Shown: positions 3,590 to 19,306 of the stretch, piece after piece | How the letters are laid out: every line of letters begins with the position of its first letter | How positions within the stretch are numbered: the stretch's first letter is position 1 | Virus record (IMG/VR): IMGVR_UViG_3300042868_003346 | Location: 1 to 20,058 of that record | Direction: 5' to 3' (one strand) | Length of the DNA: 20,058 nt | DNA from: a virus | Program-made: the position numbers and the translations under genes | The notes under the pieces: model-generated | What the model was told of the DNA's origin: nothing | Database searches by the model: none | The model's input: only the letters and a program-made list of their open reading frames with translations

Positions 3590-4024
3590 ATGGAAGGATT
3601 TAACATAGAACTTTTTAAAGGTAAATCATTTTCAGACTTATTAAAAGACATTTATAGTAACTCTCAAAAGAAAGATAGACAAATAAATGTATTAATATCT
3701 GAACTAAGACCTTTAATAAAGAACATAGGTGACGCAACAGTTATAGTCCCTTTAATTAAAGAATATTTAGAAGTAGGTGTAAAAAATGATGAGCACCTAG
3801 TAAAATTAGCCGCTGTAGTACAACGGTTAATTTCTACTAATAATAAGGTCCAAGCCGAGACAGGTCAGTCATGGATGTTATCTGACGAAGAAAAGAAACA
3901 GTTACTGGAAGAATTAGATTCATTAGACGTTAGTCATACTGAAATTAATCAAAAGGTTATTGAACTTTCAGCTACTCAAAACGAAGTAGAGCAGTCAATT
4001 GATAATATTGAGGACGAATTATAA
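3590..4024 (+). CDS. Conserved-looking helical phage protein of unknown function
   Basis: This 144-residue protein is not recognised with certainty. It appears all-helical: an N-terminal segment (residues 10-30, FKGKSFSDLLKDIYSNSQKK), a central compact region rich in Leu, Ile and Val (33-85, containing LIKNIGDATVIVPLIKEYL), a Gln/Trp-bearing linker (90-97), and an acidic C-terminal coiled-coil helix ending in EDEL. The stop overlaps the next start as TAATG, so it is coupled to the spike-like gene. Its place between the late sigma factor and the baseplate spike allows two guesses: a late-transcription accessory factor, by analogy with T4 gp33, or a tail-assembly or structural protein. Neither is shown by a motif. 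The start follows the leader cgtaatagt with no Shine-Dalgarno site. Confidence 0.75.
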   Translation: MEGFNIELFKGKSFSDLLKDIYSNSQKKDRQINVLISELRPLIKNIGDATVIVPLIKEYLEVGVKNDEHLVKLAAVVQRLISTNNKVQAETGQSWMLSDEEKKQLLEELDSLDVSHTEINQKVIELSATQNEVEQSIDNIEDEL

Positions 4025-5433
4025 TGTTAGATAAGTTTAAGACATCAGCCGGTGAATTAGAAATAGTTCCTGCAGAAGTATTATCTGTTAATTTTTCGGA
4101 TTCAAATCCGACATTAGTTAATACAATTCGAGTTAAAGTCTTAGACCGACAAACAGCTGCTAGTACTGATACATCATTAAATTCATTAATTGCACGTCCA
4201 TTAAGTTCGTTAGTTAAACGAATTCCATTAGTTCATGAAGTAGTATTATTAATAAAAGCTCCGTCTGCGTATACAAATGGAATTCGTGTTGATAATGATA
4301 ACTATTACATTGACGTTGTAGGTTTAGCTAGTAACTTAAATCATAATTCATTACCAAAAGTTTCTAAAGTAAATGTATTAGGTACTACTAAAACAAATAG
4401 TACATCGTATTCTAATTCGCAGACAGGTAATGTTAAAGTTAATACTACAACAGACTCTACGTTAGATAATAATTTTACGGAAAATTCTTTAGTAAAAGCT
4501 TTACAACCATATGTAGGTGATGTATTATTAGAAGGTCGATTTGGTAATTCGATTAGATTTTCATCTACTCAAAAAAATACATCATTATTTTCAAAAATAC
4601 CTAGATGGTCTCAAGGTAATACAGGTGATCCTATTTTAATAATTAGAAATACTAGACAGTCGACAAATACAAATCGACAAAATGATTTTACTACTGAAGA
4701 TTTTAATTTAGATGATTCAGTAATTGCATTAACTAGTGGTCAACAATTAGAATTTACACCTAATACAACAGTAGATGTTGCATTAAAATCAGAAGGATTA
4801 AATACTTGGCAAAAAGATAAATGGGGTAAAATACCAAATGCATTAATATCATCGGGTCGAGTTACTGTTAATTCAACTGCTAAAGAAGTATCTGTATTTG
4901 GTAAAGATGGAATTTCATTAGCTTCAGATAATAGCGTAACTGTTGATTCATCTAAAAACATTGTATTCAATGGTTCGGAAATTAAATTAGGAAATAATGC
5001 AACTGAACAATTAGTATTAGGTAATCAGTTAGTAACTTGGTTAAACAATTTAATTACAACATTAAGTACATTAACTGTTACTACCGCAGCTGGTCCGTCA
5101 GCGCCATTAATTACTAGTCCGCAATGGGCAGCAATTCAATCATTGCAAGGTCAGTTAAATACATTGTTAAGTTTAAATGTTAAAGTAGCTAAGACATTAT
5201 CTACTACCGCAACATCGGGTAAGTCTAGTCCATTCTTTAAAAATTCAGGTAATCCTGATTATTCAGTTTCAGAACAACGTAAACAGTCATTAACTCAAGA
5301 ACGAGATGCTATTATTGATAAAGAAAATACATTAGGTACTTTATCAGTTCCAGATCGAGAACGAAAACAGTTAATAGAACGTATATTATTATATCAGTCT
5401 GAGTTAAATTCAGAAATACCTAAACCTAGTTAA
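4024..5433 (+). CDS. Baseplate central spike/hub-like structural protein (gp5/gpV-like, no lysozyme domain)
   Basis: A 469-residue tail protein. Residues 1-115 are beta-rich (VLSVNFSDSNPTLVNTIRVKVLD, then YYIDVVGLA) and resemble the oligomer-binding fold that opens spike proteins. A Ser/Thr/Asn-rich linker follows (about 120-155). Residues 162-215 hold the segment GDVLLEGRFGNSIRFSST and a GDPILIIRN strand, found in spike- or hub-type proteins of T4-like phages. Residues about 255-325 show the regular short strands of a triple beta-helix needle (VTVDSSKNIVFNGSEIKLG). The last 135 residues are helical. T4 gp5 carries a lysozyme domain between its OB fold and needle; none is visible here, and a separate cell-wall hydrolase gene follows at once. 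Structural assignment is likely, the exact T4 counterpart is inferred. Confidence 0.68.
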   Translation: MLDKFKTSAGELEIVPAEVLSVNFSDSNPTLVNTIRVKVLDRQTAASTDTSLNSLIARPLSSLVKRIPLVHEVVLLIKAPSAYTNGIRVDNDNYYIDVVGLASNLNHNSLPKVSKVNVLGTTKTNSTSYSNSQTGNVKVNTTTDSTLDNNFTENSLVKALQPYVGDVLLEGRFGNSIRFSSTQKNTSLFSKIPRWSQGNTGDPILIIRNTRQSTNTNRQNDFTTEDFNLDDSVIALTSGQQLEFTPNTTVDVALKSEGLNTWQKDKWGKIPNALISSGRVTVNSTAKEVSVFGKDGISLASDNSVTVDSSKNIVFNGSEIKLGNNATEQLVLGNQLVTWLNNLITTLSTLTVTTAAGPSAPLITSPQWAAIQSLQGQLNTLLSLNVKVAKTLSTTATSGKSSPFFKNSGNPDYSVSEQRKQSLTQERDAIIDKENTLGTLSVPDRERKQLIERILLYQSELNSEIPKPS

Positions 5434-5434
5434 T

Positions 5435-6157
5435 ATGCCAAATGATTTAAATATAAATGATCCGGAATTAGAAGATGACGAAATCATTGAACCGGATTCA
5501 GAGGAAGAACAAGACTTAGATGAATCTACGGTAGATTTTTTTAAGTCATTGGCAGTTTCAACACCAACTGAAACTGATCCGGAGGCAATTGACCCTGCGG
5601 GTATTGCAGTTAATAACGAAGATGTACAAAAGATATTAAAGGCAATAAAAATTGCAAAACAAGATTGGTTAAACAATGTAAAAGAATCAGGTCGTGATAA
5701 TACCGGTAGTCCTAGAATTTTGCAAATGCAAAAAAATACAGGAGCAATTGCACAAGCTTGGTGTGCTTCTGCAGTTACTACATGGTGGAAAGAATCAGGA
5801 CTATTACCATCGAATTGGAATGGATCCGCATCAGTAGTTGCATGGACAGAATGGGCAAAGAAAAATAAACGATGGAGTAAAACTCCAATGCCTGGCGCTG
5901 CAATAATATATGATTTTGAGGGCGGTCGATCTGCCGGCGGCGATCATATTGGTTTATGTGTAGCAGTAGAAGGCGGAAAAGTTGCATCAATTGATGGAAA
6001 TTATGGAGATAAAGTTTCTGCATATCAACCAAATTTGGCTACTGTATTAGGATATGTATTACCAGTAACAGGTAGTACAATTGATATATTTAATGAATTA
6101 TCATCAGAAGTTAGATTAGCTGACTTTAAGAAATCAAAACCGCAAAAGTATAGCTAA
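5435..6157 (+). CDS. CHAP-domain peptidoglycan hydrolase, probably baseplate-borne
   Basis: CHAP enzymes cut peptidoglycan as amidases or endopeptidases through a Cys-His pair. In this 240-residue protein the nucleophile is probably Cys110 in AQAWCASAVTTWW and the base His171 in AGGDHIGLCV, with a polar third residue in SIDGNYGD (Asp187 or Asn189). PMPGAAIIYD before the His is also typical. Residues 8-56 are very acidic and low in complexity, perhaps a flexible tether or a docking tail. The gene starts one base after the spike-like gene and is followed by gp25 and gp6 genes. The enzyme therefore most likely rides on the tail tip and opens the wall during DNA injection, doing the job of the lysozyme domain missing from the spike. 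A role in end-of-cycle lysis is less likely because no holin is next to it. Confidence 0.85.
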   Translation: MPNDLNINDPELEDDEIIEPDSEEEQDLDESTVDFFKSLAVSTPTETDPEAIDPAGIAVNNEDVQKILKAIKIAKQDWLNNVKESGRDNTGSPRILQMQKNTGAIAQAWCASAVTTWWKESGLLPSNWNGSASVVAWTEWAKKNKRWSKTPMPGAAIIYDFEGGRSAGGDHIGLCVAVEGGKVASIDGNYGDKVSAYQPNLATVLGYVLPVTGSTIDIFNELSSEVRLADFKKSKPQKYS

Positions 6158-6189: not shown

Positions 6190-6681
6190 ATGAATACAAA
6201 AGAGTTTGTACAGGCAATACGCCAAATTATTAAAGAAGAAGTACAAAAAACTGTTAAACGAGAAATTCAAGTTTTGTTAAGTGAATCTAAAACGATTGAT
6301 ACGTCGTTAATAGATATTGTTGAACCTAGAGTTAAAGTACAGCCTAGAAAGCCGCAACCGCAACGTACCTTTTCAAAAAATCCGGTATTAAATGAAATTT
6401 TAAATTCAACAGCTCCGATGTCTAAGCATGATAGTTATATACAAGAATCATTTATGCAAGAAACGGTTGCAGAAGTAAATTATAATGACCATTCAGAATG
6501 GCCAACAATGCGTAATATGTCAGGAATGTCAAATAAAATTGGCGTAGCTTCTATGTTACCAACTACCGATACCGAAGGAAGGCCGTTAAACAATGTACAT
6601 GTACCTGAGGAAGTAGCAAATGCATTAACAAAAGATTATTCTGCGTTAATGAAAGCAATTAATAAGAAAAAAGGAAATTAA
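6190..6681 (+). CDS. Hypothetical protein in baseplate operon
   Basis: A 163-residue protein not recognised by motif. Residues 1-33 form a strongly charged amphipathic helix (EFVQAIRQIIKEEVQKTVKR), followed by a basic Pro/Arg-rich linker (46-60) with the string KNPVLNEIL after it. The middle is Met/Ser/Asn-rich and probably disordered. The end (EEVANALTKDYSALMKAINK) is again helical and basic. The pattern, two helices joined by a flexible region, fits a small tail-assembly or bridging component. It lies 32 bases after the CHAP gene and 3 bases before the gp25-like gene, so it is inside the baseplate operon. The 6158-6189 gap holds a weak five-pair AT hairpin (6164-6168 with 6175-6179) and no clear promoter. 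Confidence 0.72.
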   Translation: MNTKEFVQAIRQIIKEEVQKTVKREIQVLLSESKTIDTSLIDIVEPRVKVQPRKPQPQRTFSKNPVLNEILNSTAPMSKHDSYIQESFMQETVAEVNYNDHSEWPTMRNMSGMSNKIGVASMLPTTDTEGRPLNNVHVPEEVANALTKDYSALMKAINKKKGN

Positions 6682-6684
6682 TAA

Positions 6685-7152
6685 GTGGCAATAGAACAAC
6701 GAAATAAAGCTGTAATAGATACAGAACCAGATGTAGCAATAGGATTAAAATTACCTATTGTTTCTACTAATGGCAGATTATTTCCGTTAAACTACACCAC
6801 CGATGATCAACTTTTTACAAATGTAAAAAATTTATTATTAACTAGTCCCGGTGAAAGATTATTTCATCCGGAATTTGGAACTGATATTAGAAAATCTTTA
6901 TTTGAACCTAATACATCTAAGTTAATAGGTAAAATAAAAGATTCAATTGTAACGGCAATTGGATATTGGATTCCAAATGCTAGTATTGTTACGTTAGATG
7001 TAGAGCCATTAACAGTTGCAACTGGAATAGTTGAAGAAAATGGCGTTGCTATTAGTTTAGTAATTCAAAATAATACATCAGGTGTAACGCAACCAGTTAC
7101 ATTTTTAGCTACCCCGTCGGGTATAGAAGAAACATCAGAATTAGCAATATAA
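6685..7152 (+). CDS. 25: Baseplate wedge protein, T4 gp25-like
   Basis: The gp25/GPW family forms the sheath-contacting part of the baseplate wedge in contractile tails and related injection machines. The 155-residue protein (T4 gp25 is about 132) shows the family core: DDQLFTNVKNLLLTSPGERLF (40-60) followed by HPEFGTDIRKSLFEP (61-75), including the near-invariant PGER and the G-x-D/G that follow it. Residues 100-125 give the VTLDVEP strand and a short tail follows. The gene starts with GTG at 6685, preceded by AAGGAA at 6671-6676; no ATG in frame would give the conserved N-terminus. It sits directly before gp6, as in most contractile-tail phages and type VI-like systems. Confidence 0.92.
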   Translation: MAIEQRNKAVIDTEPDVAIGLKLPIVSTNGRLFPLNYTTDDQLFTNVKNLLLTSPGERLFHPEFGTDIRKSLFEPNTSKLIGKIKDSIVTAIGYWIPNASIVTLDVEPLTVATGIVEENGVAISLVIQNNTSGVTQPVTFLATPSGIEETSELAI

Positions 7153-7153
7153 C

Positions 7154-9022
7154 ATGACACAAGTTAATAAAGATATACGTTATTTAAATAAAGACTTTAG
7201 TCAGTTTAGACAAAGTTTAATAGAATTTACTAAGACGTATTTCCCGGATACATTTAATGACTTTTCAGAAGCATCACCGGGTACAGTATTGTTAGAACAG
7301 GCTGCGTATGTAGGCGATGTATTATCATATTACACTGATTCTCAATTAAAAGAATCATTATTATCATATGCAACTGAGCGACCTAATGTATTGGCATTGG
7401 CAGCGGATAAAGGATATAAAACAAAAAATTCTATTCCTGCAACTGTTGAATTAGATATATATCAATTACTACCTGCAATTACATTGGGTACGACAAAAGT
7501 ACCAGATTGGAATTATGCATTGACATTAAATTCAGGCATGACTGTTCGTGCAGATCAGTATAATGTAGAATTTAGAACAATATCAGATGTTAATTTTTCT
7601 GCATCATCTTCATTTAATCCTACCGAAGTATCTGTTTATCAAATTAATAGTGTAACAAAAGAAGTTGAGTATTTTCTTTTAAAGAAAAAAGTAAAAGCCA
7701 TTGCAGGTACATTAAAAACAGTTACATTTGATTTTGCAGATGCTAGAAGATTTGATAAAGTAATTGTAGATGATGAAAATATTATTGAAATAGTTGCAAT
7801 TGTAGATTCAGATGAAAATATATGGACAGAAGTGCCGTATTTAGCACAAGATACAGTATATGAAACTGTAGCTAATTCAGTACAAAACGATCCTGCATTA
7901 TCAGTTAATTCAGATGTTCCTTATTTATTAAAACTTAAAAAGACTGCTAGACGATTTGTAACTAGATTTACATCGGAAGGTAAATTAGAAGTTCAATTTG
8001 GAGCAGGTGTTTCTGACAATGACGATGAAACAATTATTCCTAATCCTGATGTATTAGGATTATCATTACCTGGTATTGGTAAATCATTTGATAGTGCATT
8101 AGATCCATCTAACTTTTTATATACAAAAACATATGGATTAGCTCCGTCAAATACAACATTAACTATTACTTATTCAGTAGGAGGAGGCGTAGCTTCAAAT
8201 TTACCATCGCAGACATTAACAAATATCGTAGGTGTAAATTATTCTATTAATGAAGAATTTTTAGATAAGACATTATTACAGCGAATAAAATCTTCAATTG
8301 CATCAACAAATATGTCACCTGCTATTGGCGGGAAGTCATTAGAGTCGATCGAAGAAATACGTCAAAATGCAATGGCAGAATTTGCATCTCAAAATAGAGC
8401 AGTTACTGTACAAGATTATATTATTCGTGCATATTCATTACCTGCTAAATTTGGATCTGTAGCAAAAGCATATGTATTACAAGATGATCAACTTAATGCT
8501 GATAATATAAGAATTCCAAATCCATTAGCTTTAAATTTATATACATTGGGATATGATGTTAATGGTAATTTAGCTCCATTAAATGACGCTGTTAAAACTA
8601 ATCTACAAACTTATTTAAGTCAATATAGATTATTAACGGATGCTGTTAATATTAAAGATGCGTATATTATTAATGTTGGAATTACATTTGAAATAGTTAC
8701 GTTGCCTGAATATAATTCAAATGAAGTATTATTAGCATGTATTACTAAGTTAAAAGATATATTTGCAATTAATAAATGGCAAATAAATCAGCCAATTATA
8801 TTATCTAAAATATATACAGAATTAGATAAAGTAGTAGGTGTACAGACAGTTACATCAGTTGATATTAAGAATTTATATTCATCAACAGCTGGTTATTCAG
8901 GAAATATTTATGATATAAAGACAGCTACTAAAGATGGTGTAGTATATCCTTCATTAGATCCGTCTATTTTTGAAATTAAATATCCTAATAAAGATATAAT
9001 AGGAAAGGTTGTATCACTTTAA
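7154..9022 (+). CDS. 6: Baseplate wedge protein, T4 gp6-like (J-family)
   Basis: gp6 dimers form the inner ring that holds the six wedges of a contractile baseplate together. This protein has 622 residues (T4 gp6 is 660). The N-terminus carries the family pattern: DIRYLNKDFSQFRQSLIEF (7-25), PDTFNDFSEASPGTVLLEQ (31-49) and AYVGDVLSYYTDSQLKE (51-67). A beta-rich middle (about 95-340) is followed by the helical segment SLESIEEIRQNAMAEFASQNR and VTVQDYIIRAYSLPAKFG (about 395-435), also conserved in gp6 and P2 gpJ relatives. The C-terminal domain has alternating strands and helices. The start is one base after the gp25 stop, in a leader with no Shine-Dalgarno site. Identification rests on recognised sequence pattern and gene order. 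Confidence 0.92.
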   Translation: MTQVNKDIRYLNKDFSQFRQSLIEFTKTYFPDTFNDFSEASPGTVLLEQAAYVGDVLSYYTDSQLKESLLSYATERPNVLALAADKGYKTKNSIPATVELDIYQLLPAITLGTTKVPDWNYALTLNSGMTVRADQYNVEFRTISDVNFSASSSFNPTEVSVYQINSVTKEVEYFLLKKKVKAIAGTLKTVTFDFADARRFDKVIVDDENIIEIVAIVDSDENIWTEVPYLAQDTVYETVANSVQNDPALSVNSDVPYLLKLKKTARRFVTRFTSEGKLEVQFGAGVSDNDDETIIPNPDVLGLSLPGIGKSFDSALDPSNFLYTKTYGLAPSNTTLTITYSVGGGVASNLPSQTLTNIVGVNYSINEEFLDKTLLQRIKSSIASTNMSPAIGGKSLESIEEIRQNAMAEFASQNRAVTVQDYIIRAYSLPAKFGSVAKAYVLQDDQLNADNIRIPNPLALNLYTLGYDVNGNLAPLNDAVKTNLQTYLSQYRLLTDAVNIKDAYIINVGITFEIVTLPEYNSNEVLLACITKLKDIFAINKWQINQPIILSKIYTELDKVVGVQTVTSVDIKNLYSSTAGYSGNIYDIKTATKDGVVYPSLDPSIFEIKYPNKDIIGKVVSL

Positions 9023-9033
9023 TACATACAAAA

Positions 9034-10209
9034 ATGATTTGGTCAATATTACCATATAAAGATACTACCTTATACGAGGAAGATTCTACTAGAAATACCG
9101 GATTAGATCAGGTAAACGAACTTCGTGTTCAATTAATAGATTCAAATTATTATGAGTCTAGAATATTAATGTCGTATGATACGAATAAAATTCAAAGTTA
9201 TTTATCAGCCGAATCAATTAATGTATCTGATATCTCTGCTTCATTAAACTTAAATTTAGTGCAAGCATATGAATTACCATTTAAATATGAAATCGGTGTT
9301 CGTCCATTATCACAACCATGGGTTAATGGAAGAGGATATTTAACAGGTACTAGAGTTACTAACGGAGCATCATGGGCTAATATTAATGGTACTACAGATT
9401 GGACCGGTTCGGTGACATTAACGCCGTCAAACTCGGGTAGTTTTAATTATCAAGAAATATCAGGTTCATTATATAAAACCGGTTCATATGATACTGTTAT
9501 AAACTATAATACAACCCCAGGCGGCGGATCGTGGTATATTAATGAAGCTGAAACAGGTTCTTTGTATTGTTTTCAAAGCTTTGATTATAGAACAGATTCA
9601 AATATATCAGTGGATGTATCTCCAATTGTTAAGCAATGGTTAACCAATGACATTCCAAATTACGGATTTATTGTTTATTTAAATAAAATTGATTCTGAAA
9701 CTAGTACTAGTATTTCATTTAATGAAAATACATTAATTCAGACATATGCTGCAGAAACTGATACTATATATTCGCCTACATTAACAATTTATAATTTAGT
9801 ATCTCAAAGTTTTAGTCCTAGTAATACTATTTTAAGTCCAACTGGTAGTGTAATTGTATATCAACCAAATTTCAGTGGAGAAGTTAAAGCTAATTCTAAG
9901 CATAGATTTATATTAGCTGCTAGGCCTGAATATCCTAGGCCTGCATTTGGCCAAAATACAGTGTTTAATGCTTTATTAAATTTACCTAGTAGTTCATATT
10001 ATCAAATTAAAGATTCATTAACAGATGATATTATAATTCCATATAGTCAGTATACAAAAATAAACACTATTGGTAATAATTCATTTATTGAATTTTATAC
10101 AACTATGTTATATCCTGAGCGATATTATAAGTTTGAAATAAAAACTATAGTAGATAACTTTGAATATTTTATAACATCACCTGACTTTACATTTAAAGTA
10201 GTAAGATAA
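9034..10209 (+). CDS. Tail/baseplate structural protein with DNRLRE-like domain
   Basis: A 391-residue beta-rich protein. The first 220 residues resemble the DNRLRE fold, a beta-sandwich found in surface and adhesion proteins: an opening PYKDTTLYEEDSTRNTGLD (7-25), ESRILMSYD (41-49), a conserved-type QPWVNGRGY (about 93-101), and VSPIVKQWLTNDIPNYGFIVYL (about 199-220), the last two being where this family is most recognisable. Residues about 260-391 form a second beta domain. The TPGGGSW loop (about 165) is Gly-rich. The gene follows gp6 by 11 bases, where T4-like phages place further wedge components, and overlaps the next start as TAATG. It is probably a wedge or tail-tip component; I cannot assign a T4 number. 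Confidence 0.65.
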   Translation: MIWSILPYKDTTLYEEDSTRNTGLDQVNELRVQLIDSNYYESRILMSYDTNKIQSYLSAESINVSDISASLNLNLVQAYELPFKYEIGVRPLSQPWVNGRGYLTGTRVTNGASWANINGTTDWTGSVTLTPSNSGSFNYQEISGSLYKTGSYDTVINYNTTPGGGSWYINEAETGSLYCFQSFDYRTDSNISVDVSPIVKQWLTNDIPNYGFIVYLNKIDSETSTSISFNENTLIQTYAAETDTIYSPTLTIYNLVSQSFSPSNTILSPTGSVIVYQPNFSGEVKANSKHRFILAARPEYPRPAFGQNTVFNALLNLPSSSYYQIKDSLTDDIIIPYSQYTKINTIGNNSFIEFYTTMLYPERYYKFEIKTIVDNFEYFITSPDFTFKVVR

Positions 10210-10976
10210 TGCCATATAAGTTACAAGAATTCGATAAAACATATGTATCTACAGGTGCAATTAAGTTAGATACGATAAAATCATTAGGTTATATTCCCTT
10301 GGAAACAGCACCAGATGGTACATTATATATTGATCCTAATGATACTGTTGATAGAAATAATTTAATTCCATTATATTCTGTTAAATTAAATAATGATCAG
10401 TTTCAAAATGTAATAGATACTGAGTTCAATGAGTTTACAGTTCCGGCACAAGATCGTACGCCGTTACTAGAAGCTGAAATTGAAGCACTTCGGTCTGATA
10501 GAAATAGATTGGCAAAATTGTATCAGCAAACAAAAGCTGTTAATGTAGAACAAGAACAAATTATACAAGAGTTTGAAGTTAAAAAGTTTTCTGATCGATT
10601 GTATAGAACATTTGCTTTATTTTCTGATGCAAATCCAACTAAATTAATGTCTAAAAACAAACGTTATATTTTGTATATGCAACCAGATGGTAATCTAGTA
10701 ATGTATCAATCTAAAAATCCAAATGGATATGACGTTAATGCAGAGGGCGAAAATGGAATTGTTATATGGGCATCAAATCAAGGAGTAAAAGGCGACGGTC
10801 CATGGACAGCGGGATTTCAGGTAGATACTAATTTTGTAGTACGAGATAATTCAGGTATTGCTAGATGGGATTCAGGAACTGATAATCGAGCTAGCGCTGA
10901 TGCATATTTAATTTTACAAGACAGTGGAGTATTACAAATTCTAGATGGTACTAGAGTTGTATGGCAAGTACCGTAA
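10209..10976 (+). CDS. Baseplate/tail protein with C-terminal bulb-type lectin domain
   Basis: A 255-residue protein with three parts. Residues 1-75 contain a short beta region (YKLQEFDKTY, TLYIDPND). Residues about 80-125 (LLEAEIEALRSDRNRLAKLY and following) form a coiled coil. Residues about 127-255 look like a bulb-type (B-) lectin: three sub-repeats, with YMQPDGNLVMYQ close to the Q-x-D-x-N-x-V-x-Y mannose-binding motif, then FQVDTNFVVRDNSGIARWDSG and LILQDSGVLQILDGTRVVWQ, in which the motif is partly degraded. Only the first repeat keeps the binding residues well, so sugar binding is plausible at one site. The gene overlaps the previous stop and is followed by a hairpin. Role: probably surface-glycan contact or stabilisation at the tail tip. 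Confidence 0.75.
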   Translation: MPYKLQEFDKTYVSTGAIKLDTIKSLGYIPLETAPDGTLYIDPNDTVDRNNLIPLYSVKLNNDQFQNVIDTEFNEFTVPAQDRTPLLEAEIEALRSDRNRLAKLYQQTKAVNVEQEQIIQEFEVKKFSDRLYRTFALFSDANPTKLMSKNKRYILYMQPDGNLVMYQSKNPNGYDVNAEGENGIVIWASNQGVKGDGPWTAGFQVDTNFVVRDNSGIARWDSGTDNRASADAYLILQDSGVLQILDGTRVVWQVP

Positions 10977-18895: not shown

Positions 18896-19306
18896 ATGAA
18901 ACCAAGATATAAAAGTAAAAAACAAGCAGCGCGGGCACAAGGATACAGATCTGGATTTGAAGTTGATATAGATGATACTTTAAAACAACGAGGAATAGAC
19001 GGAGAATATGAACAACATATTATTCAGTATATTAAGCCTGCAACAAAACACAAATACCATCCAGATTTTAAATTACCAAATGGGATCTATATAGAAACCA
19101 AAGGTCGATTCGTAGCCGCCGATAGAAAAAAACATTTATTGATCAAAGATCAAAATCCAGATTTAGATATTCGTTTTGTATTTCAAAATTCTAAAACAAA
19201 ATTATCTAAAACTTCAAAAACAACTTATGCAGATTGGTGTACTAAAAATGGCTTTATCTACGCAGATAAGCAAATACCGAATGAATGGATAAATGAAACT
19301 AAATAA
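18896..19306 (+). CDS. Holliday-junction resolvase, T7 endonuclease I-like
   Basis: T7 endonuclease I cuts branched DNA such as Holliday junctions, clearing replication and recombination intermediates before packaging. This 136-residue protein (T7: 149) matches along its whole length: GYRSGFE (16-22), KHKYHPDFKLPNGIYIETKG (51-70), DRKKHLLIKDQNPDLDIRFV (76-95), TTYADWC and ADKQIPNEWI. The active-site residues fall at Glu22, Asp57, Glu67 and Lys69, the same spacing as Glu20, Asp55, Glu65 and Lys67 of T7, so it should be active. T4 itself uses endonuclease VII (gp49), so this is a different resolvase in a T4-like genome. It follows the tail gene by five bases, so it could be read from the structural transcript, and a terminator-like hairpin follows it. 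Confidence 0.95.
   Translation: MKPRYKSKKQAARAQGYRSGFEVDIDDTLKQRGIDGEYEQHIIQYIKPATKHKYHPDFKLPNGIYIETKGRFVAADRKKHLLIKDQNPDLDIRFVFQNSKTKLSKTSKTTYADWCTKNGFIYADKQIPNEWINETK

Follow-up and report, generated by a model that had tools for sequence, protein, structure and literature searches.

The gene at 4024-5433 of the DNA stretch analyzed here, a 20,058-base virus record (the window), probably encodes the puncturing spike of a contractile-tailed phage, and the one at 5435-6157 its virion-borne hydrolase, in a slot after the spike whose content is exchangeable. The spike gene is encoded in a baseplate operon, where it adjoins homologs of gp25 and gp6, and all the genes of this region lie on the + strand. 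Both ORFs, of 469 and 240 aa respectively, are present on that strand, with a single base between them (TAA-T-ATG). The features of the region are:

4024..5433, + strand: central-spike-like baseplate protein, 469 aa, without a lysozyme domain
4057..4809, + strand: spike body, residues about 12-262, with an OB-like start (HMM alignment, model and structural neighbors; boundary set by hand from the alignment)
4807..4812, + strand: body/needle junction (residue 262/263, set by hand from the alignment), where the gene is split in other family members, mostly with an enzyme between the halves
4810..5172, + strand: needle-like part, residues about 263-383, a putative needle fold (HMM alignment and model)
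5173..5430, + strand: C-terminal spike tail (86 residues, two helices predicted), which we propose as the dock of the CHAP protein
5435..6157, + strand: CHAP-domain protein, 240 aa, in its own gene (Pfam, PHROG)
5435..5569, + strand: acidic N-terminal tail of the CHAP protein, residues 1-45, matching the acidic linker of fused relatives
5753..6001, + strand: CHAP domain, spanning residues 107-189 in the Pfam match; C110, H171 and D187 occupy active-site columns
6190..6681, + strand: small conserved helical gene of the baseplate operon, which closes the enzyme slot
6685..7152, + strand: gp25-like baseplate wedge protein (PF04965, 3.5e-10)
7154..9022, + strand: gp6-like baseplate wedge protein (PHROG 219, 1.5e-23), used as anchor and tree marker

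The pair formed by the spike gene and the separate CHAP gene is real and conserved. Identity to the window is 92% for the spike and 94% for the CHAP protein in locus L004 (of which L005 is a duplicate), and 62% and 74%, respectively, in L006, with dN/dS values for the CHAP gene of 0.055 and 0.217 against these two loci, which indicate purifying selection. By gp6, the closest named relative is Microcystis phage Mel-JY01, with 55%, followed by four Flavobacterium immuto phage records at 46% and an uncultured phage at 44%. The original prediction that a spike without lysozyme is followed, one base on, by an acidic-tailed CHAP gene was confirmed by the ORFs, the Pfam and PHROG matches, the alignment to the family HMM, and the AlphaFold2 model of the spike.

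In the case of the spike, no Pfam family was matched at E<=1, and hence neither a recognised lysozyme nor PF06714 (Gp5_OB). The family HMM (positions 3-363 on residues 12-383) aligns unbroken across the body/needle junction, and for this reason we conclude that the spike holds no lysozyme. The AlphaFold2 model, based on 38 sequences and with a mean pLDDT of 73.8, shows beta strands and short helices at the junction, and no inserted helical domain was seen there. Structural neighbors of this model include a baseplate chain of phage P1 (9vzk_q; Z 7.5, rmsd 3.8, 177 aligned residues), VgrG (9jg9_E; Z 6.8, 170 aligned), gpV of phage P2 (3qr8; Z 6.6, 126 aligned), and AlgoCIS (7aef_q; Z 6.5, 130 aligned). 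Z values for these four systems range between 6.4 and 7.5 over 115-177 residues, all below 8 and in a fold, the OB fold, that is common; many plain OB-fold proteins were in fact also found among the neighbors, aligned only over about 55-90 residues. A Foldseek search of the PDB with the model gave no match at E<=0.001, and the spike profile against PDB sequences returned VgrG 8gra alone, with an E-value of 0.34. Our confidence that this protein is the central spike, based on fold similarity and genomic context, is good but not complete. It is very unlikely that we are dealing with a different OB-fold baseplate protein rather than with the tail-tip spike, even though its sequence matches no known spike significantly and ribosomal and other OB folds reach equal Z values, because the alignments to spikes are twice as long as those to plain OB folds and extend beyond the first domain, and because the gene adjoins gp25 and gp6, and this family, like T4 gp5, has fused hydrolases, here placed C-terminally or at the junction.

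The protein encoded at 5435-6157 matched Pfam CHAP (PF05257) with an E-value of 4.1e-5 and 24.4 bits, slightly under the Pfam cut-off of 26; 15 of the 18 CHAP homologs match the same family (best E-value 1e-10), and the one fused to the spike in L166 scores above the cut-off, at 28.8 bits. Matches were also obtained to PHROG 9589, an endolysin family (2.2e-11), and to PHROG 1259, annotated as baseplate hub subunit and tail lysozyme (3.4e-9). The N-terminal tail is markedly acidic, with 16 D/E and 1 K/R in the first 45 residues. The active-site columns hold C110 (in AWCASAV), H171 (in GDHIG) and D187 (in the IDGN motif), which correspond to the catalytic residues of CHAP enzymes. C110 and H171 are conserved in 15 of the 18 aligned members, and in the three that have lost the Cys, the gene also encodes a C39-like module. 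Judged from its sequence, the window protein carries a CHAP domain with an intact Cys-His active site, and peptidoglycan amidase/endopeptidase activity is predicted. Structure prediction, which the original prediction had proposed for both proteins, succeeded for the spike but gave a poor model of the CHAP protein (pLDDT 39.6, from 5 rows); its profile found only weak matches among PDB sequences, to 5t1q_A (E 0.011) and 2lrj_A (E 0.024).

The strongest evidence that the CHAP protein acts with the spike is that relatives encode this CHAP and this spike as one fusion protein. Among the best 55 loci of a CHAP profile search of IMG/VR, the spike HMM and the CHAP HMM matched one and the same ORF in L166-L171 (661 aa), in L173 (652 aa), and in the partial L172. 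These fused ORFs are followed by the same helical gene, by gp25 and, where the contig extends so far, by gp6, and the separate CHAP of the window aligns with the fused ones across both the acidic tail and the domain. Related CHAP domains are also found at the C terminus of Gp5_OB proteins in L193 and L214 (PF06714, 7.9e-27 and 1.5e-30), of which the L193 spike also carries GH19. The fusion in close relatives indicates that the window CHAP is very probably spike-borne.

One could argue that this protein is the lysis endolysin, placed among the baseplate genes by chance and with no link to the spike, given that its best PHROG match is the lysis family phrog_9589, that the proteins it matches best in named phages carry an endolysin annotation, and that no other lysin was seen in the 20-kb fragment. 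We find this unlikely, however, as close relatives have the same CHAP domain covalently joined to the spike and other relatives have it joined to Gp5_OB spikes, as the slot holds no enzyme in several relatives (28 of 102 are empty), and as longer relatives have a distinct GH19 lysin distant from the spike. The latter was seen upon searching ten long records for four families (GH19, CHAP, Amidase_2 and M15_3). Six of the ten have, away from the spike, a stand-alone GH19 that belongs to the endolysin family phrog_181, and in Mel-JY01 it lies some 69 kb from a second GH19 located in the slot. CHAP was found in two records, in both cases as the known slot gene, Amidase_2 in one, and M15_3 in none of the ten.

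The content of the place after the spike was compared across loci obtained from three scans of viral contigs (best 80, 80 and 55 matches). Among 219 sequences (218 loci plus the window), 171 had gp6 and 144 of these also had the spike, which corresponds to 102 clusters with spike, out of 125 clusters made at 97% gp6 identity; since the third scan asked for CHAP, this class is over-represented in the 102 clusters. L193, L210, L213, L214 and L215 are outside them, as gp6 or a match to the spike HMM is absent on the contig. Enzyme classes were assigned by seven class HMMs, seeded on proteins with Pfam or PHROG matches. A recognised wall enzyme was found at the spike in 28 of the 102 clusters: as a separate gene in 19, fused at the C terminus of the spike in 4, and at the body/needle junction in the others (3 fused, 2 separate). 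The slot is taken by another gene in 46 clusters and is empty in 28. The classes found at the spike are CHAP, GH19, VanY, M15_3, Amidase_2, GH108 and C39, and a quick gp6 tree required at least 14 changes of class. GH19, for example, is present as an acidic-tailed separate gene in the slot of Mel-JY01 and fused to the spike in L032, and the junction holds Amidase_2 in L059 and L060, VanY in L050, M15_3 in L078, and GH108 in L070. Because the enzyme is fused, replaced or absent in relatives, the spike appears to be a dock on which wall cutters can be exchanged.

The slot genes of L011 (GH108-like) and of the L024 type, which had been named by eye, have no Pfam support and were not taken as enzymes; L011 enters the enzyme count solely through its degenerate CHAP and C39-like gene. 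The slot genes of L024 (6341-7771), L099 (5704-7137), L104 and L106 have a Cys/His region (WCG...HVETCV...GGN) that is CHAP-like by eye and without a Pfam match, and might represent an unrecognised class of enzyme.

The spike itself is encoded in two ORFs (HMM positions about 2-248 and 241-363) in seven clusters (L050, L059, L060, L064, L070, L074 and L078), and five of these (L050, L059, L060, L070 and L078) have a recognised enzyme between the two halves; the split spike of L074 is truncated at the contig start. On the tree, the split state needs three changes, two of which are forced by well-supported branches. About 500 residues without an assigned family lie at the split-spike junction of L064 (2593-5007). 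The longest enzyme array at a split spike was seen in L070 (390-7471), where spike body, GH108, needle, VanY, and a helical gene of 971 aa follow in series.

As for the CHAP domain, a His takes the place of the Cys in L205 (with L008 and L206), in L215, and in the fused L213, and L011 has lost the Cys. Peptidase_C39_2 was matched in L008, in L215 (above the cut-off) and in L210 (below it), and the C39-like neighbor in L011 was recognised by a self-built HMM only. The simplest reading is that a dead CHAP would have been retained as carrier of a new peptidase. In L213 (3143-6601), a single ORF of 1152 aa combines the spike, a degenerate CHAP, a C39-like region, and Phage_lysozyme2.

These patterns could be accommodated by a modular spike dock with two ports, one at the body/needle junction, which is the place of the T4 lysozyme, and the other at the needle end, where at least six classes of hydrolase would be exchanged, fused or separate. 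In one branch, Cys-less CHAP would be kept as an adaptor for a C39-type peptidase, and the separate body and needle genes of some members would amount to a genetically pre-cleaved gp5. We give this broader model about an even chance of being correct.

With regard to the window, we propose that the protein encoded at 4024-5433 would serve a contractile-tailed phage as its central puncturing spike, and that encoded at 5435-6157 would be a separate subunit of the virion, acting as a peptidoglycan hydrolase of the CHAP cysteine amidase/endopeptidase type. Most likely, the latter would dock non-covalently at the tip region of the spike, by way of its acidic tail and the 86-residue tail of the spike. 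Tail contraction would then carry the CHAP protein into the envelope, where it would open the wall locally and allow DNA entry. The place after the spike would be an exchangeable enzyme slot, which in relatives accommodates a fused CHAP, an inactivated one with a new peptidase, an enzyme of another class, or nothing. We infer the presence of the CHAP protein in virions, its docking through the tails, its catalytic activity, and its timing at entry.

The lengths of the spike tails bear on docking. Separate enzymes of eleven clusters have an N-terminal domain of about 200 residues (ND200), and the spike tails of these clusters measure 6-8 residues; separate enzymes without ND200 are found in eight clusters, including the window, with tails of 53-386 residues. 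In a comparison of 91 clusters, a spike tail of at least 50 residues was thus present in 8 of 8 separate-enzyme clusters without ND200 and in 0 of 11 with it, as well as in 1 of 28 with an empty slot and 4 of 44 with another gene in the slot. After correction for kinship, the association does not reach significance (p 0.25, with 3 pairs for, 0 against and 3 equal), and tail length was rejected as a kinship-independent predictor of a separate enzyme. The pattern, at this corrected p of 0.25, suggests that either the spike tail or ND200 serves as the dock. The HMM of the fused linker picked up the spike tails of L008 (iE 3.7e-9) and L215 (1.4e-9) but not that of the window, for which shuffle tests were mixed (14, 374, 161 and 2 of 500). 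For L008, L205 and L215, but not for the window, the data support the notion that the tail is a remnant of a fused linker.

According to the original prediction, the wall-cutting activity had moved from a T4-like spike to its own gene and enzyme class. What stands is the present arrangement, as the spike has no lysozyme, the separate CHAP is of another class, and its role at the spike is backed by the fusions in L166-L173 and the Gp5_OB spikes of L193 and L214. The move itself found no support, given that the spike family is not Gp5_OB by sequence, that enzymes in relatives occur at two places and are fused, separate or missing, and that the trees do not polarise these states. In a careful tree of 33 gp6 rows, the window groups with L004 and L006 (100/100), and this trio stands beside a group of eight (100/99) with fused, separate-degenerate and empty members whose order is not resolved; the branch joining the two groups has a support of 87/71, and the tree of the spike core agrees. 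Neither tree tells which of the separate and fused states came first, and in the clade of the window the separate state is, if anything, no less likely to be ancestral. It is doubtful, although conceivable, that a wall enzyme formerly inside or on the spike was freed by gene fission in this lineage. Such fission would be in line with the position of the break, which falls in the acidic linker that joins spike and CHAP in fused relatives, with the match of the L008 and L215 tails to that linker, and with the precedent of a spike-hydrolase fusion described for T4 (PMC3004832). On the gp6 tree, however, the enzyme is separate in the window trio, L205 and L011, fused in one group (86/85), and absent in another, with no resolution of the inner branches. 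The spike tree places the fused L213 apart from L166/L173, again without resolution, and a fused ancestor saves no changes over a separate one.

The proposed arrangement shares with T4 gp5 a central spike with a wall hydrolase. In T4 gp5, as described in PMC3004832, the lysozyme sits between the OB fold and the needle, and proteolysis cuts the protein behind the lysozyme, yielding gp5* and gp5C. L050, L059, L060, L070 and L078 come closest to this layout, as their enzyme lies between body and needle, which are separate chains as they are after T4 cleavage (PMC3004832), although the break in these split relatives is genetic and not proteolytic. The window spike, in contrast, is continuous, lacks both a hydrolase and PF06714, and has its enzyme after the needle, as a separate CHAP. 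The families annotated as baseplate hub subunit and tail lysozyme also offer a parallel: PHROG 1259 carries the same CHAP-type region C-terminally (positions 981-1131), and the Gp5_OB spikes that bear this CHAP in L193 and L214 belong to PHROG 430. These are single large polypeptides, whereas the window encodes its enzyme in a separate gene and has a spike of another family. The nearest named relative is Mel-JY01 (WWT39504-WWT39505), in which a homologous spike (28%) is followed in the same slot by a separate, acidic-tailed wall-enzyme gene, which is of GH19 type (phrog_181, 9.9e-33) where that of the window is CHAP. Cargo effectors of the T6SS protein VgrG are also encoded in neighboring genes. 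The same logic applies to VgrG proteins that carry the effector fused to the spike C terminus (PMC6899460). Unlike T6SS cargo, however, the cargo proposed here would serve to open the wall at phage entry and has no immunity genes, and the likeness seen is one of layout.

Virion lysins, as well as spikes that have or lack an enzyme, are already known, as reported in PMC3004832, PMC5380687, PMC6116005 and PMC11948020, and the gene pair alone adds one more member to them; exchange at two ports, split spikes and an inactivated CHAP are what would set the present case apart. Our literature search, which covered papers accessible without subscription, found none that describes, for the spike of this clade, a slot with exchangeable enzymes. 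Most described virion lysins are glycosidases according to PMC5380687, and the CHAP, M15 and C39 enzymes at these spikes are peptide cutters. The interest of these findings lies more in the pattern across the family than in the window alone. The wall enzyme used at entry is usually regarded as a fixed component of the spike; a single spike family with fused, separate, split, inactivated and absent enzymes in close genomes makes exchange testable, with its fused, separate and degenerate forms serving as natural experiments on how a hydrolase is loaded onto a spike.

Three other genes of the window are worth reporting. A Clp-type protease gene (1141-1779; PF00574, 1.6e-31) lies a short way upstream of the spike and is also found in Mel-JY01. 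In the baseplate region, the gene at 10209-10976 has a weakly B_lectin-like C-terminal part (E 0.0058, under the cut-off), and a homolog of Phage endonuclease I (18896-19306; PF05367, 1.7e-58) is located where the baseplate/fiber region ends.
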